From NCBI GenBank assembly GCA_028684065.1, contig JAQUGO010000007.1, positions 1 through 39,506 on the forward strand: 39,506 nt of DNA. The letters are read 5' to 3'. A model generated the notes under the pieces. It ran no database searches. It saw only the letters and a program-made list of their open reading frames with translations, and was not told the DNA's origin. The position numbers and the translations under genes were made by a program. Origin of the DNA: Sulfurospirillaceae bacterium (GTDB taxonomy: Bacteria > Campylobacterota > Campylobacteria > Campylobacterales > Sulfurospirillaceae). Of the stretch, positions 18,645 through 39,506 are shown piece by piece; within the stretch, counting starts at the first letter, position 1; every line of letters starts with the position of its first letter.

Positions 18645-20509
18645 GTACAGGTGTCATTGTCATTCTCTCCACTCTTGGGCTAATGATGGGTTTTATACTC
18701 TACCCACGCAAAAAAGAAGAACACGGCTTCGTGTATGAAAGCTATCCTTTGTCACGCTTTGCGTGGGGTAGCGGTGCTAATCCACGCCAGTATATTAAAG
18801 GTTATCTTTGGAGTCCTTATTTTAGGCTCCAACAACTCTTTAACAAACCATCCAATACTGTATTTTTAGATGAGTTTCGTTTTTTACCTGAATTTATCAG
18901 TGAATCACGCATGAATGGCTTTTTTAGAAAAAAAGCAGAATCCGTAAAAATCTCTTTATCTGCATTACAACTCACCCAAGGAATGCTCATTACTGGTATG
19001 ATGGGCTCAGGTAAAACGATGTTTTATAATAACCTCTTTGTACAACCCTTTTATGATCGTGCGCTAATACATGAAATCAAACAAGATACCATTCAAACTC
19101 TGTATGTACCACGTAAAGATTTTATTCTCTGCCCTTACGATGAACGAAGTCATCTTTGGGATGTTATGAGTGAAGATGAAGGCATCATTCAAACGTTCTT
19201 TTTAGAGTATATGAATGCCATTATTGGTGAAAAGACCGATTACTTTAAAGCAGCAGCGCAAAAACGTTTTAATGATGTGGCACTACAGGTTAAAACCTCA
19301 TATAAAAATGCAACGTCCGCTCAAAAATGGCTTTTATTTATCAAACTCCTTAGAGATATGTTTGATGAGATAGAAACTTCAAATCAAAAGAGCCAAAAAG
19401 ATGTTCAAGCCACTATGGAGCAAATTTTAGAGCCACTAGAAATTATGACATTTCAAATGCAAGATCCACATCAAAAATGCTTTACAATCAAAGATTTTTT
19501 TAAAAGAAAAAATCAATCTAAACTCATCTTATCCAATATCGCAGAATACGATAAGGCACTCAAACCACTCTTTTGTGCCTTTATTGCCTGCTTTACGCAG
19601 ATCCATGTTTCAATGCCTGATACCAAAACCGATTTCACACTCTATGCCCTAGATGAATACCTCAATTTTGTTCAGAACATGGATGAATCCTCACGCAAGC
19701 GTATTCATACACTGATACGCTCTAAAGGCGGTATGTTAGTAGGCGGTGTACAATATTTGCCAATCAACGATAAAAAGCTCTTAGAAGAACTCACAAGCTC
19801 TGCATTTGCATGGCTTTACTTTTCAACGATTCAGCCTGAAACGGCTGATTTTTTTATCAACAGCGTTAAAGAAACAGAATACAGTTACGAAGAACGCAAT
19901 GAAAGCTACACAGATGGCAAAAAGAGTGTTTCATATCAAACCAAAAAAGAATCAACACATCTTCTAAATTCTCATATTCTTAACGGTCTAGGTGAAGATT
20001 TTTCACACATTACTTTTATACCTCAAAAACAAGTGCTCTACAAAGGGTACACGCCTGTTGTAGAGCTTACCAAACGACATGAGGGCTTCATTAAAAAAGA
20101 TCTCTCAGGCTTCTATGAACTCAAATACAAATCCCATAAAAAAATAGATCCAAACTCATTAAAAGTCGAAGATATGTTTGCACGCTCCATGAGCAAGCTT
20201 GAAAAATTCAAGCTTTTCAAACGCTACGAAGCTTCTGGGAACAAAGAAGCCTTTGCAAAAGAAAACAACCTGCAAGATGTCAATTTCGAACTTTTTTTCA
20301 AAGAGTTTATCCCTGATGAGATGATCATACAGAGCAAAATGAAATTATTAAGCCTACAAGAGCGTTTCGACCTTGCAGGCAAATGGCATTCAATCCCAAA
20401 AGAAAACAGCGAAGCCCAATTATCATTCATTGAACAATATCAATTATATGGTGCGTTACCAGATATTTTTAATTTCACCACTACTCAACTTCAAAAGATT
20501 AATTTCTAA
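18641..20509 (+). CDS. Type IV coupling protein (TraD/VirD4 family)
   Basis: 622 aa. One N-terminal membrane segment (VIVILSTLGLMMGFILY), then a P-loop motor with Walker A GMMGSGKT (about 118-125) and Walker B FTLYALDEYLNFV (about 330-342). Coupling proteins are hexameric inner-membrane ATPases that bring the relaxase-DNA complex to a type IV secretion channel. The motif MLVGGVQYLPINDKKLLEEL matches the family's ATPase core. Carrying its own coupling protein but no VirB4 fits a mobilisable element. Translationally coupled to the preceding gene. Confidence 0.88.
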   Translation: MSTGVIVILSTLGLMMGFILYPRKKEEHGFVYESYPLSRFAWGSGANPRQYIKGYLWSPYFRLQQLFNKPSNTVFLDEFRFLPEFISESRMNGFFRKKAESVKISLSALQLTQGMLITGMMGSGKTMFYNNLFVQPFYDRALIHEIKQDTIQTLYVPRKDFILCPYDERSHLWDVMSEDEGIIQTFFLEYMNAIIGEKTDYFKAAAQKRFNDVALQVKTSYKNATSAQKWLLFIKLLRDMFDEIETSNQKSQKDVQATMEQILEPLEIMTFQMQDPHQKCFTIKDFFKRKNQSKLILSNIAEYDKALKPLFCAFIACFTQIHVSMPDTKTDFTLYALDEYLNFVQNMDESSRKRIHTLIRSKGGMLVGGVQYLPINDKKLLEELTSSAFAWLYFSTIQPETADFFINSVKETEYSYEERNESYTDGKKSVSYQTKKESTHLLNSHILNGLGEDFSHITFIPQKQVLYKGYTPVVELTKRHEGFIKKDLSGFYELKYKSHKKIDPNSLKVEDMFARSMSKLEKFKLFKRYEASGNKEAFAKENNLQDVNFELFFKEFIPDEMIIQSKMKLLSLQERFDLAGKWHSIPKENSEAQLSFIEQYQLYGALPDIFNFTTTQLQKINF

Positions 20510-22733: not shown

Positions 22734-25700
22734 CTATATAATACTTTCTCTTAGCATATATCCAGTAACCGAGCCTTTTTCGGTTAAAAAGTTTAAAATG
22801 ACAAGGAGCATACTCTTTATGGCAGGTGTTTTTTTAATTTTTTCATGATTTTGATATATATATTTTTTAGTTAAATTTTCTATATAAAAAATTGTATCTG
22901 AATTGGCTTTTTTAGATTGATAATAATCTTTGTTGATATTCAAAATATTAGAAATCCAATATACCCCATCATCTAAATATACTTCCCCAATTGTATTTAA
23001 TAATTTTGATATGGAATATAAAACTGATGGGCAATGCCCTATTTTTTTTGAAATTTCATCAAAAAACTTTTTATCTATTTCTTTAAATGATCGCCAATCT
23101 TTTGCTGTATCTTTCCATTGTAGCTGAGCAAAAAGGTAACTTTCAACTACTATGTCTATATAAGAATAACTGTCTCCATCTTTACACATAAAAAACACTT
23201 TTTCTTGGAAAACTTTCCATACATACCAAAAATTATCATAGGTATTTAAATCATCTTCAATACGAATAAATTCTTTAAATAAATCTGAAATAACTTCTGA
23301 TGGTTTGAAATGATCAATAAATGGTTTCAAATAATCCATAATTTCATTTTCTGGTGCATTTAGCACAAAATGAACATAACTATTTACAAAGCTATGTCGA
23401 ATTTTATAATCTATTTTTTCATCTCTATTATTTAATAACAGCTGTTTAATAATAGATGGAATAATGATTTTGGCTATTTTTTTGTGATCTTCATTATTAA
23501 TTTTTTTCGGTAGTAATTTCAATACAATCTTGATCATATTCAAATCTAATCTATCAAGATTAGTTATATCACTCAATGTCAATTTGCATTCAAAAATTTT
23601 TTCTAAATCTTCTTCATTTTCTTTAATGAACTTTGTCAGCACCTCATTAGAAGAAAAATTATAATTCTTTCGCTTATAATTTCTATTTCTAATTTTTACA
23701 AATAGTTTGTCATATCTTGGTTTCAATAATATATAACCTAATAATAAAGACTGAGCAATATTGAAATGAATTTCCCATAATTGATGAATTGTAATAATAA
23801 AACTTGCATGATTTTCTTTTAGTACGCCAAAAAGTAAAAAGTTTTTTATATCTATATGTTCCTCAGGAAAAAGTTGCAACAATATAGGAAGAGACAAAAT
23901 AGCCTGTTCGACACCATCAGACACTTGGTAACGATAGTCTGGGCGAAATGCTGAAGATACTACAAAAAAAAGAACTTCTTTACAAAATTTTTTTTCTTCA
24001 GCAACTAAATCATTTGCATAATCCCTTAAAAGAACAGCACATACATAAGCAGGAATAGAATGATTAAAGAAATAAAAACCGTTTTGTCCAAAGGAATCCA
24101 TATCCAAAGGATCGGGGTTCTCAATCATATTTAATTTTTCACTAATTTCTTTTGCTTCTTCTAATGCTTTCTTTGGATTTAATTCATATATATCATACTG
24201 TTTATATCTATCATCACCTTTAAACTTATATTCAGCCCAAAGCTTCAAAGAGATATGCTTTATAAATTGCGAACTTTCAAGCAAAGAATCTTCTCTATAT
24301 TTTTCAAGGCTAGAGTCAATTTGTGGATTGAATTGGATGACAAGCCCATCTTGTATTTTTTCAGTTGTAATGTTCATTTGTCTCCTATCCATACTAGCTA
24401 GATAAAGCCTCCAAGTTTTATCTCTGTCTGATTGCTCAGATTCTTGTGGCAAATGTTCATAATAATTATCTAATATTTCCCATAATATTTTTTGCCTATT
24501 GTTAGCTTCTTCTTCACTAATTTTTCCACTTCGAAAACATTGATATTTTAAAAATAATCCTTCCAAATTTGATTGACGATGTTTATCTTCACATGTTTTA
24601 ATTCTTTCATTATCACAAAATTTATTAGTAGTTATACCCATATTTTGTGCCATTGAGTATAAAGATTTCGCCTCAGATTCTTGTGCCATTCTGATAGTAT
24701 CATTCATAATAAATTCTTGTGTTTTGAAAAGAATTCTTGCAATATTAAATGTTTTTTCAGGATAAGCTAACACAATACTTGTTACCACAGAAGAAATCGA
24801 TGCTGATATAGTATTCCTCAGAAGATATAACAACCAACTTTCCAATATATCTGCTTTAGCATTTTTCCCCATCTCAAGAAAATATTTTTCTAAAGCCATA
24901 TGTATAGATTGAAGTAATTCAGGGCTTATAGGAGAACTTGTCCCTCTATACATATTCCAAAGACAATGGCTTATATATTGTTTTTGTATATCTTCTTCAT
25001 CCAAATAAACATCAACATTTATGACCGTTTTATCAAAGTCAGAATGAGCATATTTCTCTGTTGCTTGATTAGTAAACTCTAATATAAAATCCACTGTACC
25101 TTGCAAATTAGAGTGTAATAACTGATATATTGGTGTTTGATAGGCACTTCCAGGTTGATAATTGAAATGATTCTCTTCCAAGCCAAAATATTCTTCAGCA
25201 CCGAAACTAGAACGACTATAATATGAATCATCATCCTCTTCTGATTGACTTACCCAAAATAAATCTGCTAATTTATAAATATATTCAGGAAGAGTCTTTA
25301 TAACAGCTATTCCATCAAATTTTGTCAAAATTACATCAACTAAATCATAGTAAGGATTACTATGTTGTCTCCAATTATTTTGAATAATCTCATCAAAAAT
25401 ATTTTTTAACTCATTTTGTATTTCAGAAGCACTATAAAGAATTGTTTGTATAAGTTTTTCTTTCGTATCATCACGAGAAAAATAAATATCTTTTTCTATA
25501 GTCAATTGATAAAATTTCAATGCTATAAGTCCTGAAATTCTTGTTGTTTCACCTTCTTTTATTTTTGCAGTCCAATCGTGAAGTACAGGTAAAATAAAAT
25601 TAATATTTTTAATTCCAATAACGTCTAAATTATCAAAAACAAATTTTATAAGACTTTGCCATCCTCGTCCTCTAGGTTTTGTTAAAACATATTTTAAAGA

Positions 25701-27446
25701 TAAAATATCAAAAGATTTAAGTCCTAATTGTTGAAAAAAATCATCGTCAAGTTCTTTGCAAGCAAGTCTAAGTAAAAAAGTAATTTTTTTTAATAGTTCT
25801 TGTTGATTACTTAATAACTCCGTTTTAAAAAAATTAAAAAAGGTTGTTGAATACTCTGAAAGTAAAACTGAAACAATAATTTCATCTTTCCAAAATGACT
25901 CAATTTCATTATTAACAATACTTTTTTCAATAAATTGTTTAATCTCTTTTGTTTCCAACAAGAGATTTTCTGACAACCAGTTTCTAAAACTTCTTCTGAT
26001 AGGTAAAGATTGACCTATTTTATTAAAAAAATCCTGCTCATTGATTTTTTTAATAAATTCATTAGTGATGCTTTTTTCTAATGACCATTCTTCATAGATG
26101 TCATGAGTGATAAAATAACCAGCATTTTCATATCCTAAAATGCCATCTTCTAACAACTCAGTGAGTAGTGTTGATTCACAATTTGGAGTTATATAAAATT
26201 GCCCACTATTTGCTCTTTCAGAAGCTATTTTTAAGAAACAAATTTCTCTTGCAGGTTTGTTTCTTCTGATAATTTTATTCCATAAGATTCCTTTGAATTC
26301 ACTATAATTTAGAGTATCAGCTTCTGTATGAAATTTTAAATATTCACTTAAATAAAATGAATTTCTTAACAACTCTAGAAATTTCGTATCACTAGGCAAT
26401 GTGAAAGAGTATTTTTCTGATAAACTCTCTAATTCATTTAATTCTAAAATTTTAATTTGTATATTTAGCGGTTTAATATTATATATCTGAAAAAATTCAT
26501 AATTTAAATCATCCAAATAATTATTTCTCGTTGTAAAAATAATTTTCCATTTTTCTTGGATTAGAGATAATAAAAACTCTTTAAAAGGATCAGAATTCTT
26601 TAAATCTAGAAGTTTTTCAGCAGAGTCGATGACAATAGTTTTTTCTTCTATATCTTTGTGAATATTTAGAAAGTCATAAAAACTAGATGTTCGAAATAAT
26701 TCATTTAAATTGCTTAATTCAAATTCAGTTGCTTTAAATACATAAAATGGATTTTTATCTTTTGATTTTTCATAAAGTTTTTTTATAATTGCAGTTTTTC
26801 CAACACCGCCAACACCACTTAATATTAAAGCTTGTCTTTTTTCATCTTCAATTTGTGTAATGTCTTTAGTTCTATCAATTTCAATAATACTATTTTTAAA
26901 GGAGATCCCAGTATGTATTGAATATAAAATGTTTTCAGTATGTTTTTGTTGATCTAAAACAAAATCAAAAATACTTTTTTCTAATAAAAAGAAATGCTTT
27001 GCCAGTGTTTCATTAGTTATCGATACAAACTCCGACTCAAAAAAACTAGCAGTTCTCCATTCTAAATTAATGCCTAAATCTTTTGCTTTTATATTTATAT
27101 CTATTAAACCTTGTGGCTCTTTTCCTTTAGATTGACCCCATTCTTGATTGGTAAATAAAAGAAGCTTTGTAATATTGGGATAATCTCTTTTTGCATTTCC
27201 AAGAGTTGAAAGTAATTCCTCTTTATGCTCTGATAGTGCAGTATCATAGAATTTTGATTGCCATCCAATTACTTCTTCATTAATTTCGATAGGATTTGTT
27301 TCAAGTGCAGATTGATTTTTATATCTGAAAATACCGTATGGTTTGTTAAACTCTTTGCAAAATAATAAATAACAAAACCATTCAAAAGTTGCCTGTGTAT
27401 TTCCACTAAATTTTACTTTGAAGATGTCCCAATTTAATTTAATCAT
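22734..27446 (-). CDS. Avs4-like antiviral STAND NTPase with N-terminal Mrr-like nuclease
   Basis: 1570 aa. Residues 15-110 look like a PD-(D/E)xK nuclease of the Mrr/Cap4 type: FEWFCYLLFC, acidic residues near 49-57, then IGWQSKFYD with Q63 and K65. The STAND module has Walker A SGVGGVGKTAI (211-218), Walker B TIVIDSAEKLLD and a sensor IIFTTRNN. The last 1000 residues are long, alpha-helical and repeat-like, as in sensor domains. This nuclease-STAND-sensor layout and the length match Avs4 of the AVAST systems, which recognise phage portal proteins and then cleave DNA. Which Avs class it is, and its trigger, are inferred. An extended -10 promoter lies upstream. Confidence 0.65.
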   Translation of the reverse strand: MIKLNWDIFKVKFSGNTQATFEWFCYLLFCKEFNKPYGIFRYKNQSALETNPIEINEEVIGWQSKFYDTALSEHKEELLSTLGNAKRDYPNITKLLLFTNQEWGQSKGKEPQGLIDINIKAKDLGINLEWRTASFFESEFVSITNETLAKHFFLLEKSIFDFVLDQQKHTENILYSIHTGISFKNSIIEIDRTKDITQIEDEKRQALILSGVGGVGKTAIIKKLYEKSKDKNPFYVFKATEFELSNLNELFRTSSFYDFLNIHKDIEEKTIVIDSAEKLLDLKNSDPFKEFLLSLIQEKWKIIFTTRNNYLDDLNYEFFQIYNIKPLNIQIKILELNELESLSEKYSFTLPSDTKFLELLRNSFYLSEYLKFHTEADTLNYSEFKGILWNKIIRRNKPAREICFLKIASERANSGQFYITPNCESTLLTELLEDGILGYENAGYFITHDIYEEWSLEKSITNEFIKKINEQDFFNKIGQSLPIRRSFRNWLSENLLLETKEIKQFIEKSIVNNEIESFWKDEIIVSVLLSEYSTTFFNFFKTELLSNQQELLKKITFLLRLACKELDDDFFQQLGLKSFDILSLKYVLTKPRGRGWQSLIKFVFDNLDVIGIKNINFILPVLHDWTAKIKEGETTRISGLIALKFYQLTIEKDIYFSRDDTKEKLIQTILYSASEIQNELKNIFDEIIQNNWRQHSNPYYDLVDVILTKFDGIAVIKTLPEYIYKLADLFWVSQSEEDDDSYYSRSSFGAEEYFGLEENHFNYQPGSAYQTPIYQLLHSNLQGTVDFILEFTNQATEKYAHSDFDKTVINVDVYLDEEDIQKQYISHCLWNMYRGTSSPISPELLQSIHMALEKYFLEMGKNAKADILESWLLYLLRNTISASISSVVTSIVLAYPEKTFNIARILFKTQEFIMNDTIRMAQESEAKSLYSMAQNMGITTNKFCDNERIKTCEDKHRQSNLEGLFLKYQCFRSGKISEEEANNRQKILWEILDNYYEHLPQESEQSDRDKTWRLYLASMDRRQMNITTEKIQDGLVIQFNPQIDSSLEKYREDSLLESSQFIKHISLKLWAEYKFKGDDRYKQYDIYELNPKKALEEAKEISEKLNMIENPDPLDMDSFGQNGFYFFNHSIPAYVCAVLLRDYANDLVAEEKKFCKEVLFFVVSSAFRPDYRYQVSDGVEQAILSLPILLQLFPEEHIDIKNFLLFGVLKENHASFIITIHQLWEIHFNIAQSLLLGYILLKPRYDKLFVKIRNRNYKRKNYNFSSNEVLTKFIKENEEDLEKIFECKLTLSDITNLDRLDLNMIKIVLKLLPKKINNEDHKKIAKIIIPSIIKQLLLNNRDEKIDYKIRHSFVNSYVHFVLNAPENEIMDYLKPFIDHFKPSEVISDLFKEFIRIEDDLNTYDNFWYVWKVFQEKVFFMCKDGDSYSYIDIVVESYLFAQLQWKDTAKDWRSFKEIDKKFFDEISKKIGHCPSVLYSISKLLNTIGEVYLDDGVYWISNILNINKDYYQSKKANSDTIFYIENLTKKYIYQNHEKIKKTPAIKSMLLVILNFLTEKGSVTGYMLRESII

Positions 27447-29282: not shown

Positions 29283-29552
29283 TTACTGATCCTCATAAAC
29301 ATCTTTTCGATGAGCTACTTTTAAAACTAAAATAGTAATTTCTTGATCTGCAATTTTGGTAATAATACGATAATCACCAACTCTATATCTCCAAAACTCT
29401 TTTAGCTTACCCTTGAGCTGTTTACCTTTGTGCCTAGGATCATCGGAAGAGCCTAAATTTTGCAAAAACTCAATAAGCTTCTTGGCAATGGGCTTATCGA
29501 GCTTTGAAAGCTCTTTTTTGGCACTCTCTTTAAATTTAACGATCCAAACCAA
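29283..29552 (-). CDS. relE: RelE/ParE-superfamily toxin
   Basis: 89 aa. VWIVKFKESAKKELSKLDKP, LKGKLKEFWRYRVGDYRIIT and ITILVLKVAHRKDVYED match RelE-type mRNA interferases, including the conserved R-Y-R-V-G-D-Y-R-I core and the HRKDVY tail. It overlaps the antitoxin gene by 17 bp. It lies next to the integrase at the right end and probably discourages loss of the element. Confidence 0.9.
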   Translation of the reverse strand: MVWIVKFKESAKKELSKLDKPIAKKLIEFLQNLGSSDDPRHKGKQLKGKLKEFWRYRVGDYRIITKIADQEITILVLKVAHRKDVYEDQ

Positions 29553-29751
29553 GTTCTTTTACCACTTCATCTAAAGTATAAATTCTCTCAGGTGTTTGGT
29601 CTGCTTTTTCTGCCAAATAATAATCTTCCAAATTCTCAAAATAATCCTCAAATAATTTGCGGATGTAAAAGGATTTTGGACGATCTGTTAATGTTGCTAA
29701 ACGTGATAGTCTAACCTCAAAACTCTCTTCAAGTCTAATTGAAGTAGCCAT
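29536..29751 (-). CDS. relB: Ribbon-helix-helix antitoxin of the RelE pair
   Basis: 71 aa. ATSIRLEESFEVRLSRLATL followed by TDRPKSFYIRKLFEDYFEN is the RHH DNA-binding domain of this antitoxin type; the acidic tail (EADQ-like, then RIYTLDEVVKELGL) would bind the toxin. AGGAGG lies 6 nt before the ATG. Preceded by a TATAAT box and a palindromic operator, fitting autoregulation. Confidence 0.88.
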   Translation of the reverse strand: MATSIRLEESFEVRLSRLATLTDRPKSFYIRKLFEDYFENLEDYYLAEKADQTPERIYTLDEVVKELGLDR

Positions 29752-29800: not shown

Positions 29801-30955
29801 TTAATTTGATATATCATTCATATATTCATTCAAAACTTTATCAGCGGTTGCCAAACTAGTCTTAGCATATCTCTTAGTAACAGATATACTGCTATGCCCA
29901 AGGACTTTACCAATAGCTTCTAAACTTGTTCCTTTATTGACCATTGTATTACCAAGTAGATGTCTCGTATCATGGATACGCATTTGATCAATTCCTGCAA
30001 TTTTAAGTACATTTTTCCAATGTTGTCTAAAGGTATGTGCCGTTACATGATCTGTTATCTGTCCACTAAAAATAAAGCCATATTTTTGAACTTCATAGTT
30101 TTGCAAGAAAGACTCTAATGGTGCCAAAAGAGGATATTCTTGTCTCTTTCTAATTTTTGAGTAACGATCTTCAATCACATATGTATGTTGATCAAATAAA
30201 ATATTTTCCCATCGTAATGTTAATGCCTCATTTAGCCTTCTACCAAAATATAAAAAGAGCATAATTCCTTTATATTTTTCAATCTCGTAATTTTGTATAG
30301 CCTCATATAATTTGAAGCGTTTATCATCAGATAATTGAAAATCTACCGTGTTATCAAAAGATGGCAATGTAACTTTCATTGTAGGATTAGATACAACAAT
30401 ATCTATATCCATTGCATACTTAAAAAGAGGTCTTAATAGCTGCTTGATGGTTTGTGCAGTGCGAGGCTTATGACCTTTTCTTAAAATCGAATTGACGATG
30501 TTTTGAATATCTGTTGTACGTATTTTGTCAATTGCCATACAGCCAATTGCAGGTCTAATCCACTTGTCATATGATTTTTTCATAATATAGATATTATTGG
30601 CAGAAAGTGAATCGCTTTTTAACTCTATATACTCTTCCCAAAGCTCATCCAATGTCTTATATTTTTTAGTTGTTATTGTACCCTTCTCTTCTAGCTCTTT
30701 TTTAAGCCCTATTCGCTCTACAATAGCTTTTTTAACTGCTTGTAAGCCAGTGAGTTGATGGAAATGTAAAGTCTTTTTTATTGTCTTAGAACGATGCCAA
30801 AATTTCACAACAATATCAATTGGTTGGTTGTCTAACTTCTTCAATTCAGATTTGTCAATAGCTTCCTTAAACATGTTGTCTTTATCTTTAAGATATAATC
30901 CTGATGTATCAAGACCTAGAAGTTCAATTTTTTTGAGTTGATCATTGAGAGCCAA
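29801..30955 (-). CDS. int: Tyrosine recombinase (integrase) of the tRNA-Leu element
   Basis: 384 aa. An SAM-like core-binding domain (about 100-185) is followed by the catalytic domain with LYFGRRLNEALTLRW (first Arg), HDTRHLLGN (H-x-x-R) and LGHSSISVTKRYAKTS (second His and the nucleophile Tyr). It starts at TTG with AAGGA 7 nt upstream. It lies about 140 bp from attR, with two GGGTACGGT repeats in between, and shares its promoter-proximal region with those sites. All catalytic residues appear present. Confidence 0.93.
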   Translation of the reverse strand: MALNDQLKKIELLGLDTSGLYLKDKDNMFKEAIDKSELKKLDNQPIDIVVKFWHRSKTIKKTLHFHQLTGLQAVKKAIVERIGLKKELEEKGTITTKKYKTLDELWEEYIELKSDSLSANNIYIMKKSYDKWIRPAIGCMAIDKIRTTDIQNIVNSILRKGHKPRTAQTIKQLLRPLFKYAMDIDIVVSNPTMKVTLPSFDNTVDFQLSDDKRFKLYEAIQNYEIEKYKGIMLFLYFGRRLNEALTLRWENILFDQHTYVIEDRYSKIRKRQEYPLLAPLESFLQNYEVQKYGFIFSGQITDHVTAHTFRQHWKNVLKIAGIDQMRIHDTRHLLGNTMVNKGTSLEAIGKVLGHSSISVTKRYAKTSLATADKVLNEYMNDISN

Positions 30956-30997: not shown

Positions 30998-31097
30998 TAT
31001 AAAAACATAGCATAATATATAATAGATTAATCTTTAGAATGCCTATTTTATCGAGAAGATATTACTAAACATAACAATATATAACTATATGTTTTTG

Positions 31098-31155
31098 GAC
31101 TCAAAATCTAGTATGGAAACATATGCCGGTTCGAGTCCGGCCTCAGGTACCATCC
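31098..31155 (+). repeat. attR: displaced 3' end of tRNA-Leu
   Basis: 57/58 identical to attL (5561-5618). It contains the tRNA from the anticodon loop through CCA, without the 5' half or promoter, so it is not a functional tRNA. The AT-rich 100 bp between the GGGTACGGT pair and this core holds no gene. Confidence 0.92.
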
Positions 31156-31273
31156 TTCTTTTTTTTAACATCCAAAAAAGTTATTTAAGTCTTCAAAAAC
31201 CCAATTTTTAGGCATTTTTATTGTTTTCAGATGTCTTTTAAGTCCACTAATATCTTTCTTAGTCTACAAATCT

Positions 31274-31335
31274 TTACAGTAATTTATACAGTAACTGATA
31301 TAATTACTGCAAATAATGAAAGAGAGTTACTGTAA
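31274..31335 (+). promoter_or_regulatory. Promoter and operator-like repeats of the second integrase
   Basis: TACAGTAAC (31287-31295) is a perfect inverted match to GTTACTGTA (31326-31334), with a further TTACAGTAA at 31274-31282. Between them is an extended -10 TGATATAAT (31296-31304). The arrangement suggests repression of integrase expression by a factor bound on both sides of the transcription start. Confidence 0.5.
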
Positions 31336-31341
31336 AAAATC

Positions 31342-32577
31342 ATGCCAAAGTCGATAGCACCGCTTTCTGAAGCACAGATACGAACAACAAAGCGAAAAGA
31401 AAAAGATTATAAACTTTATGATGGTGGTGGATTATATCTATTAGTATATGCCAATGAAAATAGGCAAAAAATTTGGCTTTTTGATTATTCGTTCCAAAAT
31501 AAACGAAAAAGTATTTCATTTGGGACCTATCCACAGACTTCGTTAGCAGAAGCAAGAAAAAAAAGACAAGAAGCTAAAGCAAAAATTCTTTTAGGAATAG
31601 ATCCTTCCGAAGAACGTAAAGAAGTAAAAAAAGAATTAGAACATCCTAGTACTCTAAAAAGTATTTCTGAGGAGTGGTTTAATATTAAAGCAGGAAAACT
31701 TGCTCAAACAACAATCAAAAAGAAAAAAAGCTTTTTAATTAACCATGTTTATGATGGAATTGGAAAAAAAGATATCAAAATCATTACTCGCCTGGACATC
31801 ATTGCAACTTTGAAAGAAATTCAAGCAAAAGGTGCTTTTGAAGTTGCAGATCGTGTTTTAAATATGCTTAATAATATTTGGCGCTACGCTGTTACCATGC
31901 AAATAGTTGAACATAATATTATTGCTGATATTGAAAAGAGCATGGTTATTCAAGCTCAAGAGCGTAAGCATTTTCCAACAATTACAAATCCTAAAGATAT
32001 TGGCACCCTACTCCATGCTATTGATAACTACAAAGGTGATATAAATACGAAATTGGCCTTGATGATTTCTCCATATATTTATTTACGCTCAGCTAATATG
32101 AGAATGCTAGAATGGAAAGAAATTGATTTTGAAAAAAGAGAAATTAAAATACCAGCGCATAAAATGAAAATGAAAGCTCCACATATAGTTCCACTCACAG
32201 ACAGAACAATTGAAATTTTAAAACTAGCGCATACTATTAGTGGCCATTGTAGTATATATGTTTTCCCCTCTTCTATCTCAAATGTCAAAATAATGAGTGA
32301 AAATACGCTGAATTATGCATTAAGACGATTAGGTTATGGAAAAGATGAAATTGTTTATCATGGATTTCGCGCTATGGCGTCAACTTTACTGCATGAAAAA
32401 ATTAGTGAACATGGAATTCATAGTGATGCTATTGAGAGACAATTGGCACATGCTGAACGTTCTGGTGTAAAAGCTGCCTACAATCATGCTGAATATTTAA
32501 AAGAAAGAAAAAGTTTAATGCAATGGTGGAGTGATTATTTGGATGAATTAAAAGATAATACATTGAGTCTATTATAA
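31342..32577 (+). CDS. P4-type tyrosine integrase of a second island
   Basis: 411 aa. The N-terminal DUF4102-type domain (LYDGGGLYLLVYANENRQKI; SISFGTYPQTSLAEARKKRQ) is typical of P4/IntS integrases, which target tRNA 3' ends. Catalytic residues: Arg in YLRSANMRMLEW, Lys region in KMKMKAPHIVPL, HGFRAMAST, LAHAERSGV and the Tyr in AAYNHAEY. It starts 187 bp after the displaced tRNA 3' end, the classical attL-int layout of P4-like islands, and reads away from it. No Shine-Dalgarno of note. It looks intact, but no matching right border is seen in this window. Confidence 0.9.
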   Translation: MPKSIAPLSEAQIRTTKRKEKDYKLYDGGGLYLLVYANENRQKIWLFDYSFQNKRKSISFGTYPQTSLAEARKKRQEAKAKILLGIDPSEERKEVKKELEHPSTLKSISEEWFNIKAGKLAQTTIKKKKSFLINHVYDGIGKKDIKIITRLDIIATLKEIQAKGAFEVADRVLNMLNNIWRYAVTMQIVEHNIIADIEKSMVIQAQERKHFPTITNPKDIGTLLHAIDNYKGDINTKLALMISPYIYLRSANMRMLEWKEIDFEKREIKIPAHKMKMKAPHIVPLTDRTIEILKLAHTISGHCSIYVFPSSISNVKIMSENTLNYALRRLGYGKDEIVYHGFRAMASTLLHEKISEHGIHSDAIERQLAHAERSGVKAAYNHAEYLKERKSLMQWWSDYLDELKDNTLSLL

Positions 32578-33186
32578 ATATGTATTTTTGATCGATAGCT
32601 AACAACACTTGTTCATTATAAATGCAAGGTATTCTATTTTTTAAAGCGTCTATGGTTTTATAAGGCTGCTAAAACACCCTCTTAATCTTCGTTTAGGTTC
32701 CTCTAATGCGAGTAAAAATGAAATAAGGTTATTTATGTATATTAATATGTAAAATTATATATAAAAATTATTATTTTTAACGTGTAGAACATAAATATTG
32801 AAAAAATAAACTATATATTTGTACTTTAATTCTTTATAACCAACTGGTAAGTTTTGCCATAATACGATTGAATGTGATCTTTATGGTTGTTTTGCTAATT
32901 TATGGTTAAGTCAATACCTTCTCAAGCGGACTCACTATAGATGGCACTACTTCATCGCATGGTGTAAACCATATTTCCATGCAGTTGGTTAAGACCAGTT
33001 TGTACTATAGGACCCAGCCTTTTGTTGGTTGAACAGCATATAGCACTACTTAAGTCTTTAATATTGCCAATTAAACCTATAACTGCAGATATTTTGTAAT
33101 ACAACTCTTTTCTAAGTCTATGATTAAGTCTATTTTGAATAAATTGAATCTATTCTATTTTCAGTAAAACAAATATTGTAAATTGT
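32578..33186. other. 609-bp stretch without a recognisable gene
   Basis: No complete gene on either strand. Around 32957-32982 two mutually exclusive hairpins are possible (ATGGT/ACCAT at 32959-32972, or GCATGG/CCATGC at 32957-32982). A minus-strand open stretch of about 65 codons ends near 32953; it contains LYYKISAVIGLIGNIKDLSS and lacks a start with an RBS. This could be debris of a decayed gene at the island junction. I recognise no family. Confidence 0.4.
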
Positions 33187-34251
33187 CTATGAATCTCTTT
33201 TTTGCTTAATGATGTACCCAAAACCAGAAGGAGCTTTTGTCACAGTAATTCCGATATTGCTTCGAGCATATTCATGTGCTTCTTCAGCTGTTTCAAAATC
33301 ATATTCTTTTACAGTAGTCTCAGAAAGATTTTTTATGTTGCTTATACAATGATAAACAAATTGCTCTTCTGTGTAATCGATTGTAATATTTTCAGGTTGA
33401 GTGTCAGTTGTGAGTAATAAGCGTGAAATATTTTTTTTAAATTCAGTATTAATTGCTCTCAATACTGATCTAGCTCCCATATTTGGGTCAAATCCAATTT
33501 CATTTAATACATTTTTAGCATTTGAAGTTATTAATAATTTCAAGTCTTTTTTGTAAAGCTGTTTGGATAAATCATCTAAAAATTTATCAGTAATATGAAC
33601 AATCATCTCTTTAGTTAATTTTTTAAATTCTAATATTTTATCAATTCTATTTCTAAACTCTGGGGCTAAAAATTCTAAAATAGCCATTTCTTTATATAAA
33701 TTTTTATTTCCAAAACCAATACCATTTTGCTCAGTAGCACCTAAATTGGATGTCATAATGATGATAGTCTTAGTGAAGTCTGCTTTTTTCCCCTTGGTAT
33801 CAGTTAACACCCCATAATCTAATACTTGTAAAAAAGTATTATAGACTTTATGATGTGCTTTTTCAATCTCATCAAGCAATAAAATAGCATTTGAATTTTT
33901 TATGATAGCGTTAGTAAGTAACCCACCGTCTTCATAACCTACTAGTCCAGCTTGACCACCTATTAATGTTCGTGCAGAATGTTCATCAGCGTACTCACTC
34001 ATATCAAAGCGAATAAGCTCCTTGTTTAATAATGTAGCCAATTCTTTTGCAAATTCTGTTTTACCAACTCCTGTAGGCCCAGTAAATAAAAAGGATGCTA
34101 TTGGCTTTGTATCATCAGATAATCCTGCCATACTAATACCTATCATATCTATTACATGGCCAATAATGTGATCTTGTCCAAAAATTCTACTTTTAAGTTT
34201 TTTCTCGATTGTTAAGATATCATTAGAATTTTGTCGCATTATTTTTTTCAC
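33187..34251 (-). CDS. D2-only ClpA-like AAA+ unfoldase
   Basis: 354 aa, GTG start with AAGGA 6 nt upstream. It corresponds to the second ATPase ring and C-domain of ClpA/ClpB: Walker A GPTGVGKT (58-65), Walker B LLLDEIE (124-130), sensor TSNLGA, APEFRNRID with the Arg finger, and GFDPNMGARSVLRAI sensor-2. The N-domain and D1 ring of ClpA (about 750 aa) are absent. An IGF loop (178-180) sits where ClpA/ClpX dock on ClpP. The pore-loop GYVG is GLVG, lacking the usual aromatic. The last 55 residues are unrecognised. Last gene of the WYL-HtrA-PcfJ cluster, 75 bp behind it. Confidence 0.85.
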   Translation of the reverse strand: MKKIMRQNSNDILTIEKKLKSRIFGQDHIIGHVIDMIGISMAGLSDDTKPIASFLFTGPTGVGKTEFAKELATLLNKELIRFDMSEYADEHSARTLIGGQAGLVGYEDGGLLTNAIIKNSNAILLLDEIEKAHHKVYNTFLQVLDYGVLTDTKGKKADFTKTIIIMTSNLGATEQNGIGFGNKNLYKEMAILEFLAPEFRNRIDKILEFKKLTKEMIVHITDKFLDDLSKQLYKKDLKLLITSNAKNVLNEIGFDPNMGARSVLRAINTEFKKNISRLLLTTDTQPENITIDYTEEQFVYHCISNIKNLSETTVKEYDFETAEEAHEYARSNIGITVTKAPSGFGYIIKQKRDS

Positions 34252-34326
34252 AGAGGATCCTTTAAATTATTCATCTATGAATATTATAAAAGATTATATG
34301 GTCATATTGTGTCTAAAAATAAAAAA

Positions 34327-35799
34327 TTAACTGCTTCTAATAAAGCGATGGAACCATGTTTTAAGTACTTCATTTTGAGCATCTGAAAGTTTTCCATTAC
34401 TGATACCACTAGCTTGCCTTATGACTCCATCTGTAATTTCAACTGCAAATTCAATTTTACTATGCAAAAAGAAGCCATAAATTGTCGTATGATTATTATT
34501 TATTGCATCAAAATACCCAGATATACAGTTGTGCAGACCTTCTGCCCAATCAAATAATTCTGCTCCATTGTAGGGTAGTTTAATATCGTAATTTAGTACA
34601 CTAGCCTCTGCTTTTTCTTGTCCGCTGTGATAAGTGATATTTTTCTGAAATATTTGTTTATAGTATTTATAATGAGAACACTTTACAAATGCATCGTGTA
34701 GTGCAACTAAGGTACATTTTGGTCTTTTAAATAGCTCATCTAAGTCTTTACCAATAAAGATAAACTCTCTTAAAAGATCTGTAAGATAGCTTGTATCATC
34801 AAGTTCTTTTAAAAAAGAGACAATCTGTTTTTCACTATAGTGTTTTTGTAAAAAAAGGATTAGTTGTTTTAAATGTTGTTCTTCGTCTAAAGTAATACCT
34901 TGACAATGTAAATCACGATTTAATAATTCTGCTACAAAATTAGGGTCTTTGATAGTTCCAAGGATAGTGTTTATAAGGGTTGTTTTAAAATAATGATATT
35001 GCTGTAGTTGCTTTTGATAATTCTGATAAAGCCCTTTTTTAATCGATTTTTCATTTCTCCCTTTGAGTAAATAATCAAAGGCATTTTGTATGGTTATATC
35101 TTCTTTTGGCAACTGATTAACATCTTCCCAAAAATAAAAATCAAACTCTTTGAGCCAAGGATAATTACCAAAAAATAGAATGATTTGGTAATTTAAATTG
35201 GTATTTTTATCTGATATTGGAATGTTAAAAATATTTTGATGCGTTTGAATATAAGTATTAAGATTTTGTCTCAGAGTTGTAAATACATGATGATCGTATT
35301 GCATACAATAACTTTCAGTATTACTACCATCTTTGTAGAGGGTCAAAGCATAAAGATCAATAGGCTGTGAAATAATTTTACCTCTTGCATAATCTATCTC
35401 TTTTGGAATGGTCGATAATGGTCGATAGCTTGATACAATTTTATCACCATCATTTATAAGAACATAGTCATACTCTAAAGGGAGTGTACTTTTATCCAAA
35501 AAGGAGAGTATGCACTTTTTTTTATCACGAGAATCAAAAGTATCAAGATAATAAGTTTCGTCAGGATAAATACTAATAAAGTGTTCAAAAGATTTGTGTG
35601 CCAAGTTAGCATCATAAAAACAGATATTGTCACATTCAGGGCAACGATACTCTATGTCTTGAAAGGAAGCACGCAATAGGATTGTTTCATGCCCACAAGC
35701 ACAGATATACCCATCAACCATGTATTCTGTTTGCACAACACCATAAAAAAGTTGATGTTGTTCATTATCAAGGTATTTACTAATTCTCCAAGACATCAT
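34327..35799 (-). CDS. PcfJ-like protein with N-terminal zinc ribbon
   Basis: 490 aa. Four cysteines in a zinc-ribbon arrangement (C33-x-C35 and C53-x2-C56) open the protein. The C-terminal 110 residues match the PcfJ-like domain: AELFDWAEGLHNCISGYFDA, TIYGFFLHSKIEFAVEITDG and VIRQASGISNGKLSDAQNEV. PcfJ-like proteins are known from conjugative plasmids and phage-like elements, without an established activity. The middle is helical and unrecognised. The start lies 5 nt after the HtrA-like gene, with AGAAGG in the end of that gene, so translation is coupled. The tight pairing with a protease gene is unusual. Confidence 0.65.
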   Translation of the reverse strand: MMSWRISKYLDNEQHQLFYGVVQTEYMVDGYICACGHETILLRASFQDIEYRCPECDNICFYDANLAHKSFEHFISIYPDETYYLDTFDSRDKKKCILSFLDKSTLPLEYDYVLINDGDKIVSSYRPLSTIPKEIDYARGKIISQPIDLYALTLYKDGSNTESYCMQYDHHVFTTLRQNLNTYIQTHQNIFNIPISDKNTNLNYQIILFFGNYPWLKEFDFYFWEDVNQLPKEDITIQNAFDYLLKGRNEKSIKKGLYQNYQKQLQQYHYFKTTLINTILGTIKDPNFVAELLNRDLHCQGITLDEEQHLKQLILFLQKHYSEKQIVSFLKELDDTSYLTDLLREFIFIGKDLDELFKRPKCTLVALHDAFVKCSHYKYYKQIFQKNITYHSGQEKAEASVLNYDIKLPYNGAELFDWAEGLHNCISGYFDAINNNHTTIYGFFLHSKIEFAVEITDGVIRQASGISNGKLSDAQNEVLKTWFHRFIRSS

Positions 35800-35804
35800 A
35801 TATT

Positions 35805-37211
35805 TTAGAGCCTTCTATCACTACTCAAACCATAAATCTCTTTGATGTCTTTAAAGCTTTCTTTGACTTTTTGAGTATCAAAGATAATTTTTTTGTAATC
35901 TTCATCAATAAATTCTATCGTTGTATAAGGGTTATCAACCGCATCAATGAGTTTCACAAAATGTGCAAAATCAACAACTAAAGTGCCATTAACAGATTTT
36001 ACAAGATCACCATGTGCTGTATAGCCAATATTGATATCATGAGGCAGAACCTCATATTGCATCATAACTGCTTCTTTAATGTGCTTAGTTCTGCAATTAT
36101 CAAAGAAAAAAAGTTCGAAATTGGATGATGTTAAATCAATGGCAGCAAGATAATTATTCGTCAATGGGCTAAAAATAAATCCTCCATATATAACATAGCG
36201 AGGAAGTGCATTTTTCTCAGTATAAACAATTTGATGTTTTTGTTTTAAATTGTAAACAAGATTGATAGTTTTTTTATCTCTAATGAGTTTTATATTCATT
36301 TTATCGCCAACTGGTTTTGAATGAAAAGCAAAGCTATAGTTCGTGTAACCATACGGTGTTTTAATCATGCCATCATTTGAGATAGGCTTATCATCAATTG
36401 CTAAAATAATATCACCTAGCATAAGATCATTTTCATTCTTATCTAAATGCGTAACCACAATACCTATATCATTTTGAATACCATAGTATTTTTTCAAAGT
36501 ATTGTTATTTAAAAATTGTACACTCGTTCTAGAATTATCGTATCCATCGACCTTTCCATCTTTGATATCAAGTAAAAAAGTATTCACTATGATGGATGGA
36601 ATAATATAAGAGATATTGCTTGCTTTGATTAAGCTCTGCATTGCAATACCTACGACTTCGCCTTTAGAATTTATAGCTGCACCTCCACTGTTCCCTGGAT
36701 TAATGGCAGCATCTACTTGAATAGCAAGCATAGTTTCATTACTCCAAGAATACTTACTTGGCTCAATACGAGAAATAACTCCTTTAGTCGTAGAAAGTGT
36801 TTTACCTCCCATGGGATAGCCTAAGACGGTAATAGCATCGCCTTGTTTAATCTCATTGGTAAATTTCAACGCTTGAATACTATCGAAAAAGCTTTTATCC
36901 TGTACTTCCAATAGTGCTAAATCTGCTTGATGTGAGATAAATTTTAACTTCGCACTATATTTTTTAGAGTTATTTTCTTTAGAAACTTGTATAAATTTTG
37001 CATTGGATACTACATGTGCTGAAGTAATAACCATATTATCTACGATAATAACGCCAGACCCAGTATAGTCTTCTATTTTACCACTTTGCCATGGGTATTG
37101 ATAATTAGGAGCTGATGTTGATGAAAATATTTGAACAATAGATTGCGTTGGCAATACTGCTGACCAAGTAAATGAAATAGTAATTACTAGTATGGTAACG
37201 ATTTTGAGCAT
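35805..37211 (-). CDS. Exported HtrA/Deg-like serine protease
   Basis: 468 aa. A signal peptide (residues 1-18, cut near TWSA) is followed by a chymotrypsin-fold protease with an intact triad: H66 (ITSAHVVS), D97 (SHQADLALLEV) and S175 (NPGNSGGAAI). A PDZ-like domain (about 235-320: DIGIVVTHLDKNENDLMLGD, IILAIDDKPI) and an extended C-terminal region of 140 residues follow, closer to Deg proteins with atypical second PDZ domains than to DegP. Predicted periplasmic, unlike its cytoplasmic operon partners. AAGGAAG lies before the ATG; the WYL gene ends 52 bp upstream. Confidence 0.85.
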   Translation of the reverse strand: MLKIVTILVITISFTWSAVLPTQSIVQIFSSTSAPNYQYPWQSGKIEDYTGSGVIIVDNMVITSAHVVSNAKFIQVSKENNSKKYSAKLKFISHQADLALLEVQDKSFFDSIQALKFTNEIKQGDAITVLGYPMGGKTLSTTKGVISRIEPSKYSWSNETMLAIQVDAAINPGNSGGAAINSKGEVVGIAMQSLIKASNISYIIPSIIVNTFLLDIKDGKVDGYDNSRTSVQFLNNNTLKKYYGIQNDIGIVVTHLDKNENDLMLGDIILAIDDKPISNDGMIKTPYGYTNYSFAFHSKPVGDKMNIKLIRDKKTINLVYNLKQKHQIVYTEKNALPRYVIYGGFIFSPLTNNYLAAIDLTSSNFELFFFDNCRTKHIKEAVMMQYEVLPHDINIGYTAHGDLVKSVNGTLVVDFAHFVKLIDAVDNPYTTIEFIDEDYKKIIFDTQKVKESFKDIKEIYGLSSDRRL

Positions 37212-37263
37212 ATGTATCTTCCTTGCGGTACTCTAAATTTTTCAAAGACAAAATTATTTATAA

Positions 37264-38247
37264 TCAACTTTGATCATCTATATATGTTCTCAATTCAGTG
37301 AGTATTTGCTCTTTAAGCTCCAATGGTTCAATGACTTTAACATAAGGCAACCATTGCTTAATAAGTGCGTCAATTTCTCTGAGTTGTGTAACCTTATAAG
37401 TGACAATGATATTGCCATTTTCTTTAGTATCTAAAATATTTTGTGAGCGCAAAAACTTTTTAGCATGGAAGAAAAAGGCTTTGGATTTATCCACTTCAAT
37501 GACAACATCAATCAAATACTTTCTAAAATCTTGCCTATAAATGGAAAATGGGGTTTGCATAAATTTTATGAACTCTACAATGTCTGGATTCTTTTGATAA
37601 GTCTTTTTAGTATCTTCAATATTTCGAATTTTTGATATTCTAAACATTGAAAATTCATAGTTTTCATCATCAACCTCACACGTGAGATAGAAGTTTTCTT
37701 GGATAAAGACTATCTTATAAGGCTTTACCTCTTTTTTCTGAAATACACCATTTTTATCGGGATATTCAAGAATGAGGTATTTTTGAAACTCAATAGCGTT
37801 TTCTAGTTTTTTAAAGAGTTTATAGTCGTCTTTTTTACTCTCCAACGGTTTGTTTTTAAATTCATAATATTTATTAGCTTGGTTAACTTTACTAGTCAAG
37901 ATTTTCCGCTCATCACTGTCCATATCAAAGTTATCAAACAGATCGCTGCGTTGGGCTATATTAAAAGTCTGAATGAGTAAAGACAGGACATCTGGTTTTA
38001 AAAAATTATCAAACATAGATTGTGTGATCGCTTTATAGCATCCTCTCTCTCCCTTTCCTCCTCTGATAAGTTCAAGAGAGATTTTGAATGAATTTATAAT
38101 GACTTCAAGATCTCTTCTAATCGTCTTTTCGCTTTTACCTTGCCATAGAGGGTCTTTTTCTAAAGCATCAATACAGACTTTTTGACCATCGTTAAAGCGT
38201 TTAAGCAGTTCTAAAACGCGTGCGGTTTGATTGGTAATGACTGACAT
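37264..38247 (-). CDS. WYL-domain transcriptional regulator
   Basis: 327 aa. A winged-HTH (TARVLELLKRFNDGQKVCID; SEKTIRRDLEVIINSF) is followed by a WYL-type domain (EVKPYKIVFIQENFYLTCEV; FSMFRISKIRNIE) and a C-terminal extension (WLPYVKVIEPLELKEQILTE), the layout of BrxR/CapW-type repressors that guard defence operons. The WYL triad itself is degenerate (FYL). AAAGGAAGAATT precedes the ATG. Its promoter carries GACAAAATATGTC, a 4-bp-arm palindrome overlapping the -10 flank, so autoregulation and control of the three downstream genes is likely. Confidence 0.8.
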   Translation of the reverse strand: MSVITNQTARVLELLKRFNDGQKVCIDALEKDPLWQGKSEKTIRRDLEVIINSFKISLELIRGGKGERGCYKAITQSMFDNFLKPDVLSLLIQTFNIAQRSDLFDNFDMDSDERKILTSKVNQANKYYEFKNKPLESKKDDYKLFKKLENAIEFQKYLILEYPDKNGVFQKKEVKPYKIVFIQENFYLTCEVDDENYEFSMFRISKIRNIEDTKKTYQKNPDIVEFIKFMQTPFSIYRQDFRKYLIDVVIEVDKSKAFFFHAKKFLRSQNILDTKENGNIIVTYKVTQLREIDALIKQWLPYVKVIEPLELKEQILTELRTYIDDQS

Positions 38248-38283
38248 AGAATTCTTCCTTTAATTTTAAGTAGTTTATCGGAC

Positions 38284-38302
38284 ATTATAGACATATTTTG
38301 TC
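38284..38302 (-). promoter_or_regulatory. Promoter/operator of the WYL-led operon
   Basis: On the minus strand GACAAAATATGTC (38290-38302) abuts a TATAAT -10 box (38284-38289), and a further TGTC follows, giving TGTC-TATAA-TGTC. The -35 is weak. Such repeats at the -10 are where WYL repressors of the BrxR/CapW kind bind. Confidence 0.45.
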
Positions 38303-38311
38303 TTATGGTTA

Positions 38312-39442
38312 TTAAAAGCTGTTATTTTTCTGGCAATGTTGGTCTTTGTCATCAATGGCTTTATCAAAATTATTGTCAATCTCATCAAAACACGAATTTC
38401 CACTCTCAAAGCCTTCAGGATTTGGGTCTATTTTAAGATAGCGCCTTGGAATATGTCTCCATAGTTCAATAAAATGCTCTTTATACTGTTTGGTAAGTGA
38501 AGTATTTTCGATAATAACCGTGTTTTCATCGTTTTTACTCTCCCCTGCTTTGGTAAAATTCATCGATCCACTGATAATAAACCTATCATCAATAATCATT
38601 GATTTTGCATGCATCTTCCCACCAAAGTTTTCAACCTTTACCTCAATACCTACATCTCTTAAGATGTGGTGAGTAGAGTATTTGTTTTTAGCAGCACTTG
38701 CATCTAGGATAACTTTAATCTCTACACCTCTTTTATGCGCATCTATAAGTTCTTCGCTTAATCGTTTGTGGGTGAGATAAAAAATTGGTATATAAATATA
38801 TTTTTTTGCACCACGAATGAGAGGCTCAATGCAATTTTCATAGGTGGATGATTTAGGAGAAAAGCTTAGTGTGATAATAGAATCAGAGGTTTTAATATGA
38901 GTATAGAGAGTCGCTTCTTTTTTTGAATTAAAATGGTTTTTATTAAACATTTGCTCAAACTCTTGCTGATAGATTTTAGCTACTTTTTTATCTTCAATAA
39001 CAACCACATTATTAGCGTTATAGCCCCCAGTATCTGTATCACTAATATTAGAAGAACCTGTCCAGACTGTTTTTTGATCAAAGACAAAGAATTTATTGTG
39101 CATGATAGAGCTTTTATGGTCACTTTTGATATCAAAGAGTTCATACAAACGATGAGTATCTTCATAATAGTTTTTACCATGTGTATCACTATCGACAACC
39201 CCTTTGATATGCACACCTCGTTTTTTAGCATCAATAAGTGCTTGTAAAATCTCATCTTGTGCTCTTAGACCATATATTGCAAAATAAATTTCTTTGTGGC
39301 TTTGGTTAATAAGTCGAATAAGTTCTTTTCCAAAAGAGGTTTCGGTTTTTTTAGAAGGGTATGGGCTTGGCATATTGAGATAAAGGGTCTCTTTCGCAAA
39401 AAGATGGCACAAAAGCACAACGATGAGCATAAGTAATTTCAA
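38312..39442 (-). CDS. Exported phospholipase D-family protein
   Basis: 376 aa. A signal peptide (MKLLMLIVVLLCHLFA) precedes two HKD motifs: HNKFFVFDQKTVWTGSSN and HAKSMIIDDRFIISGSMN, both complete, so a two-motif phosphodiesterase acting on phospholipid or nucleic acid in the envelope is expected. The C-terminus (CFDEIDNNFDKAIDDKDQHC) looks like a short calcium-binding, cysteine-closed loop. The start is TTG with AAAGGA 7 nt upstream. Its stop is 64 bp from the WYL start; the WYL promoter sits in that gap, so it may be a separate chromosomal gene rather than part of the cluster. Confidence 0.88.
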   Translation of the reverse strand: MKLLMLIVVLLCHLFAKETLYLNMPSPYPSKKTETSFGKELIRLINQSHKEIYFAIYGLRAQDEILQALIDAKKRGVHIKGVVDSDTHGKNYYEDTHRLYELFDIKSDHKSSIMHNKFFVFDQKTVWTGSSNISDTDTGGYNANNVVVIEDKKVAKIYQQEFEQMFNKNHFNSKKEATLYTHIKTSDSIITLSFSPKSSTYENCIEPLIRGAKKYIYIPIFYLTHKRLSEELIDAHKRGVEIKVILDASAAKNKYSTHHILRDVGIEVKVENFGGKMHAKSMIIDDRFIISGSMNFTKAGESKNDENTVIIENTSLTKQYKEHFIELWRHIPRRYLKIDPNPEGFESGNSCFDEIDNNFDKAIDDKDQHCQKNNSF

Positions 39443-39506
39443 AATGGTTTCCTTTAATCTTTTGGGATGTTCTTGGGTGACTATTTTTTGTATTTTTCCA
39501 AAATAA

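Follow-up and report, generated by a model that had tools for sequence, protein, structure and literature searches.

A mosaic, island-borne gene set of sulfur-cycling Campylobacterota, probably run as a regulon by a DriD-like WYL protein

We analysed a 39,506-nucleotide stretch of a Sulfurospirillaceae bacterium (assembly GCA_028684065.1, contig JAQUGO010000007.1, positions 1 to 39,506; hereafter the window), towards the end of which minus-strand genes encode a WYL-domain regulator, an HtrA/Deg serine protease, a PcfJ-like protein and a ClpA-type unfoldase reduced to its D2 domain, here called Clp(D2) or CLP. We consider it somewhat probable that these genes belong to a mosaic, island-borne gene set of sulfur-cycling Campylobacterota, which is run as a regulon by the DriD-like WYL protein and serves most likely as an inducible defence against phages or invading DNA. 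The regulon itself, defined by a shared palindromic operator, is well supported. It suggests that the genes respond, upon induction, to DNA that is invading or damaged and do not make up a four-gene machine, and the set probably has a defence role. The features of the locus are as follows.

33187-34251, minus strand: CLP, stand-alone D2 of a ClpA-type unfoldase, 354 aa
34300-34314, minus strand: operator AGACACAATATGACC, 11 nt before the -10 element TATAAT; promoter of CLP
34327-35799, minus strand: PcfJ-like protein, 490 aa
35805-37211, minus strand: HtrA/Deg serine protease with a predicted signal peptide, 468 aa
37264-38247, minus strand: winged helix-turn-helix (wHTH)-WYL-WCX regulator, 327 aa
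38289-38303, minus strand: operator AGACAAAATATGTCT, a perfect consensus, 11 nt before the -10 element TAAACT; promoter of WYL-HtrA-PcfJ
38312-39442, minus strand: PLD-family nuclease, predicted to be exported
39481-39506, minus strand: end of s123, the gene of a 123-aa protein with two transmembrane segments
G000:C2:39481-~40690, outside the window: s123, s95, s104 and s74, with their own operator at G000:C2:40731

Shared operator and mosaic gene set

Along the minus strand the genes are ordered s74-s104-s95-s123-PLD-WYL-HtrA-PcfJ-ClpA(D2), and the string continues beyond the end of the window. An earlier note on this DNA had described the last four as a four-gene system packed behind one WYL-type promoter. 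The four open reading frames (ORFs) lie where it had placed them, with gaps of 75, 5 and 52 bp from CLP towards WYL, and Pfam upheld its domain calls (WYL, HtrA, PcfJ-like and D2-only Clp). Its count of four genes was too low, since the same-strand string runs on upstream through PLD, s123, s95, s104 and s74, and its single promoter gave way to three that share an operator and a -10 element. An Rfam search of 31000-39506 found no RNA family.

The operator is the palindrome AGACA-N5-TGTCT (A-GAC-N7-GTC-T), the centre of which falls, judged by spacing, inside the -35 hexamer, 11 nt before the -10 element. In this genome its sites define the promoters of s74...PLD, of WYL-HtrA-PcfJ and of CLP. 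The 13 cluster stretches (121.6 kb) contained 38 sites when scanned with AGACAAAATATGTCT, allowing at most 3 mismatches and requiring TANNNT 25-27 nt from its start. Shuffled sequences gave a mean of 0.97 sites (maximum 4) and 254.5 kb of control DNA gave 3. Most of the 38 have the orientation of an ORF that starts 52-68 bp further on. Because the scan consensus came from the set itself, a half-site test was also run upstream of ORFs, in which the spacing k of GAC-Nk-GWC was varied from 3 to 12. Clear enrichment was confined to k = 7, and all 21 sites found at this spacing had a -10 element at a fixed distance. Heat-shock regulons were considered as well, and the known boxes of HspR and HrcA differ from the palindrome.

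Sites of this type precede WYL in the present genome and in L082, G408, G418 and G195, CLP in the present genome and G412, PcfJ in G412 and G377, and both HtrA and PLD in G418; another lies near PcfJ in G287. They also occur before s93/s74 and before genes for a leucine-rich repeat (LRR) protein, a MYG1 exonuclease and lipoproteins, and in Sulfurimonas before s123 and an 82-aa gene ahead of ZorAB. In G195 (L218:802-10923), a type III CRISPR-Cas locus (RAMP, Cas2 and arrays) adjoins a WYL orthologue of 62% identity, and the operator stands before Cas2, before a neighbouring 128-aa gene of the CRISPR locus and before WYL. In addition, PcfJ or Clp(D2) is accompanied at L024:2052-9643, L183, L216:15766-19499 and L071:3328-9230 by a recurring block that encodes a UvrD/PIF1-like helicase, two large uncharacterised proteins and a short LRR protein, with the same operator at some of the genes of the block.

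Co-occurrence was examined in 44 genomes of the family including Sulfurospirillum, which are not phylogenetically independent and several of which are incomplete. A WYL orthologue was defined by 55% identity or more, with G412 counted in pieces at 59% and 44%. Clp(D2) was present in 5 of the genomes, HtrA in 4, and PcfJ and the WYL orthologue in 6 each, and Fisher tests gave 3.7e-5 for CLP-HtrA, 1.1e-4 for HtrA-WYL, 5e-4 for both CLP-WYL and CLP-PcfJ, and 0.025 for PcfJ-WYL. Outside the present genome, all four genes share one contig in two Sulfurospirillum loci, G418 and G412, and WYL, CLP and HtrA share one in G408. The former carries HtrA, WYL, PLD, PcfJ, s123 and CLP over 25 kb, interspersed with ZorAB-like and helicase genes, and the latter has WYL, PcfJ, s93, s74, s104, s123, PLD, a single-stranded DNA-binding protein (SSB) gene, HtrA, MYG1, lipoprotein genes and CLP within 12 kb, with several frames broken. 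G408 has WYL, CLP, s123, PLD, SSB, HtrA and MYG1 without PcfJ, and G377 has PcfJ, CLP, s123 and PLD without HtrA and WYL. At the threshold used, a wider search of the phylum found Clp(D2) in this family only.

Gene order differed in every locus, with other genes intervening. Thus, of the same-order co-occurrence that the earlier note had proposed as a check, the association of HtrA, Clp(D2) and WYL beyond chance (4e-5 to 5e-4) stood and the conserved order did not. It had also named separation of the genes in close relatives as evidence against a system; PcfJ (G123, G146) and WYL (G195, G331) do occur apart, but HtrA and Clp(D2) do not within the family. Its statement that no named system is known to combine the protease, PcfJ-like and Clp genes agrees with our searches, in which no PADLOC system covered the set and the literature, as far as its incomplete coverage reached, held nothing on this combination.

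DriD-like regulator and rival readings

The regulator matched the Pfam families WYL (1.6e-7) and WCX (6.9e-9) above the cut-off. In the PDB, its sequence matched 7u02, 7tzv, 9cu3, 9pfq and 8tp8 up to E 1e-4, and a profile of its orthologues recovered the five DriD structures as its only matches up to E 0.1. Up to E 1, the matches were five DriD-type chains and a weak Reg576 fragment, among which no BrxR/CapW chain was recognised. 7TZV and 9PFQ are structures of DriD, which binds ATACGAC-N7-GTCGTAT over the -35 element at a constant distance to the -10 element and activates transcription once its WYL domain binds single-stranded DNA (ssDNA) (PMC12340889). PafBC is likewise activated by ssDNA (PMC11804915). 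The protein studied here resembles DriD of the SOS-independent DNA damage response of Caulobacter crescentus in its 327-aa wHTH-WYL-WCX architecture, in the GAC-N7-GTC core of the operator, in the placement of the operator over -35 at a constant -10 distance, in having a site before the regulator gene and in having a nuclease among the targets. It differs in belonging to another phylum and in its island-borne targets, namely proteases, a nuclease, Clp and Zorya-like or CRISPR genes, and its activation by ssDNA would be expected by analogy. These data point to a DriD-like protein rather than one of the BrxR/CapW type. In G356 (L022:14150-16588), a gene near PcfJ encodes an 812-aa protein in which a NERD-UvrD helicase is joined to a WYL-WCX region at the C terminus, with a strong match to the WYL query (4e-53).

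A reading close to that of the earlier note is a dedicated four-protein proteolysis machine, working in two compartments under one repressor. All four genes are indeed found together in the present genome, G418 and G412, but a fixed four-gene unit is contradicted by the absence of PcfJ from G408 and of HtrA and WYL from G377, by the occurrence of PcfJ and WYL elsewhere on their own, by the intervening genes and unconserved order and spacing, and by three promoters in place of one, so that we regard such a machine as very improbable. A stronger contender, to which we give somewhat less than an even chance, is that HtrA, PcfJ, Clp(D2) and PLD are independent defence or stress genes linked only by an acquired WYL operator and not acting together. 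The scrambled order, the many genes with an operator of their own, the solitary PcfJ genes in G123, G146 and others and the WYL gene beside CRISPR in G195 are all in its favour. In contrast, each of the four HtrA orthologues of the family occurs together with Clp(D2), and all five Clp(D2) loci also have s123 and PLD.

As for the mode of control, the earlier note pointed to repressors of the BrxR/CapW kind. Under such repression, the WYL protein would block these promoters until a phage-derived ligand releases it. BrxR-family WYL proteins do guard defence islands (PMC9122601), the BrxR/CapW repressors those of BREX and CBASS, a WYL regulator likewise sits in a defence-type island here, and at the promoter of WYL itself the palindrome overlaps the -35 element, a position that would also suit a repressor. 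However, no BREX or CBASS genes were seen in the cluster, several operators with fixed spacing replace the one promoter that heads an operon, and this -10 spacing, kept at every site, fits activators that contact RNA polymerase; together with the DriD matches in the PDB and the DriD core over -35, these points weaken the repressor model, which we consider unlikely. Equally unlikely in our view is a host response to DNA damage or in envelope proteostasis that is not a defence, similar to the DriD and PafBC regulons, independent of SOS and borne on the island. It would accord with the DriD-like regulator and operator, with a cargo of SSB, MYG1-type exonuclease, HtrA, Clp and lipoproteins, and with the location of the HtrA subfamily in families f4 and f8 of the Campylobacterota, where it lies on the chromosome amid housekeeping genes, but not with the patchy, integrase-borne distribution (CLP in 5 and HtrA in 4 of the 44 genomes), the Shosta, STAND, Zorya-like and CRISPR neighbours or the same operator on CRISPR genes.

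Several observations count against the inducible defence regulon that we favour. The scan consensus was derived from sites of the same set, and the related loci are not independent. G377 (L026) has two sites and no close WYL orthologue (best E 5e-7); these sites may be read by another regulator, or the WYL gene may be missing from the assembly. Variant sites also occur in Sulfurimonas genomes, which lay outside the WYL orthologue search. The similarity between WYL and DriD is weak (E ~2e-6) and spans WYL-WCX only, and the AlphaFold models are of low confidence both for the WYL protein (mean pLDDT 45, with the wHTH at residues 11-50 as its sole confident part, pLDDT 69-85) and for PcfJ (mean pLDDT 40).

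Proposed response and its proteins

In the proposed mechanism, the WYL domain would bind ssDNA arising from foreign-DNA entry or damage, as in DriD and PafBC, and the protein, bound to the shared palindrome, would then recruit RNA polymerase. The PLD nuclease, placed close to the small membrane proteins, would cut incoming DNA in the periplasm, where the Deg2-type HtrA would cut incoming proteins. In the cytoplasm, the D2-only Clp ring would dock onto the host ClpP through its IGF loop and degrade a limited range of targets, for which the PcfJ zinc-ribbon protein may be the selecting adaptor. This downstream action is deduced from motifs and export signals, with host ClpP assumed, and the modules would be exchangeable cargo under one switch rather than subunits of one four-protein machine. 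A more specific proposal, which we offer tentatively and think less likely than not to hold in full, is an undescribed immune regulon, in which an ssDNA-sensing DriD-like activator on mobile islands of Campylobacterota commands, by way of the shared operator, an exported nuclease with membrane partners, an exported Deg2-type protease and D2-only Clp/ClpP with a PcfJ adaptor, joined in other strains by type III CRISPR and by a Zorya-like motor that lacks the tail. If true, foreign-DNA sensing would be tied to destruction in both the periplasm and the cytoplasm.

Defence islands under WYL control are already known, as are damage regulons of WYL proteins, and what appears to be new is that an operator of the DriD type ties these genes together in islands of Campylobacterota. 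Such an operator makes it possible to group island genes by computation where order is scrambled and co-localisation alone fails, and it highlights the uncharacterised proteins PcfJ, s123, s95, s104 and s74. It also leads to the prediction that a WYL activator of the DNA-damage type, not a BrxR/CapW repressor, commands the nuclease, protease, Clp, Zorya-like and CRISPR genes, which makes the signal that activates the island directly testable.

The PLD protein is predicted to carry a signal peptide and contains two HxK(x)4D motifs as well as an Asp-rich, Cys-bounded C-terminal tail. Its gene is near s123 in most loci and several genes apart in G418 and G377, and s123 is present at every related locus. 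On the short contig L082, where PLD is 84% identical, the order is s93, s104, s95, s123, an 89-aa ORF, PLD and WYL. With respect to DISARM, PLD gave only DrmC-like matches below the NCBIfam cut-off, and DrmA and DrmB were not found with it. The PLD scan found no relatives in viral contigs or in plasmids. In other phyla, relatives of PLD were mostly from Gastranaerophilales and had no other cluster genes nearby, with two exceptions: L116 has a MotAB-like pair and L145 a generic HtrA. The s95-s123 pair or distant relatives of it also occur alone at chromosomal places in many Campylobacterota (L186, L187, L189, L190 and L193), and therefore the membrane pair would have a core function apart from islands.

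In Sulfurimonas loci, ZorA2/ZorB2-like genes come before or after s123-PLD. Across Sulfurimonas and Sulfurospirillum, such pairs, encoding a 212-aa ZorA and a 190-196-aa partner together with an 82-aa protein, are found beside or near PLD and s123 at L069:5500-7367, L083:11125-13209, L084:101-2994, L088:11125-13215, L089:2747-4830 and L184:1165-3248. These related loci recall type II Zorya (ZorA2-ZorB2-ZorE) in having the pair beside the PLD/s123 module, but a ZorA of only 212 aa leaves no room for a long cytosolic tail. It is possible that the ZorAB-like pair and the periplasmic nuclease form an undescribed Zorya-related system. Among the proteins tested from the present cluster there was no ZorA or ZorB, and PLD and s123 are found there instead.

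CLP contains AAA_2 and ClpB_D2-small only, with no N domain and no D1 according to Pfam, and may be described as a natural ClpA reduced to one ring. Its 354 residues align to residues 439-721 of ClpA only, to which a C-terminal extension of ~55 aa is added. Walker A (residue 58), Walker B (124), the IGF ClpP-docking loop (178), PEFRNR (197) and GAR (259) are kept, as are the Arg finger and sensor 2. Compared with ClpA/ClpC unfoldases, to which its D2 AAA+ domain is ~45-50% identical, CLP thus retains the ClpP loop and differs in its missing domains, its extension and the replacement of the pore Tyr by Leu: the pore loop, GYVG in the canonical ClpA that this genome encodes separately, is GLVG in all four relatives aligned. 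Likeness to the D2-type ClpB-like AAA+ proteins of Dodola (DolAB; DolB, E 2e-32) and the PADLOC candidate PDC-M37 (PDC-M37B, 2e-35) is that of any Clp D2 domain, and no DolA or other Dodola/PDC-M37 partner was found among the five locus proteins tested. In viral contigs, the Clp scan gave ClpA/ClpB-type matches only, with no PcfJ, HtrA, PLD or s123 homologue nearby.

HtrA has Trypsin_2, PDZ and PDZ_3 domains, the triad H66-D97-S175 and a hydrophobic N-terminus. Its closest solved relatives are plant Deg2 (4fln, 1e-63) and Deg9, both matched over their full length, from which it differs in residing on a mobile island and being linked to WYL and Clp(D2). The PcfJ domain (PF14284) scored 33.1 bits in Pfam against a cut-off of 25 and is C-terminal in the protein, which has a CxC...CxxC zinc ribbon at its N-terminus; PcfJ relatives share CxC/CxxC and an invariant NC pair in the PcfJ domain. 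PcfJ had no match in the PDB and no relatives in the viral contigs scanned. In phages and plasmids it was found only as distant single genes, with the partners absent from the stretches read, and the literature, covered incompletely, has almost nothing on the PcfJ domain beyond gene lists.

Mobile island at tRNA-Leu

The cluster sits in a mobile island next to a tRNA gene and a P4-like integrase, as the earlier note had recognised. The relevant features are as follows.

5531-5615, plus strand: tRNA-Leu(caa), insertion site of both elements
31098-31155, plus strand: 58-bp copy of the tRNA-Leu 3' end (57/58 identical); boundary between the integrative and conjugative element (ICE) and the cargo island
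31342-32577, plus strand: P4-type tyrosine integrase (Arm-DNA-bind_3 in Pfam) of the second (cargo) island

The last 20 bases of tRNA-Leu(caa) are repeated at G000:C2:92947-92966. The sister genome G413 has the HU gene, then tRNA-Leu and, immediately after it, the FAD gene that lies at 94142 here. Since the site is thus empty in G413, ~88 kb has been inserted here, made up of an ICE (~25.5 kb) and, in tandem with it, an island (~62 kb) with the P4-type integrase, which adjoins the gene cluster. Upstream of the cluster on the same island, outside the window, are homologues of the defence genes ShosA and ShosT (Shosta; L021:11384-12897 = G000:C2:41383-42896; ShosA 6e-69) and a DUF4062-NACHT-TPR STAND NTPase (L021:13291-17148 = G000:C2:43290-47147). 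PLD, SSB and PcfJ are also carried on conjugative elements, and cargo for conjugation or plasmid establishment was therefore considered, but this reading was dropped, since the cluster sits in the element that follows the ICE, which ends at 31.1 kb. The ICE itself occupies 5616-31155 of the window and encodes a relaxase/helicase (15551-18442), a coupling protein (18641-20509) and an integrase (29801-30955), as well as a RelE-type toxin-antitoxin pair (29283-29751) and a 1570-aa P-loop STAND-like cargo protein (22734-27446).

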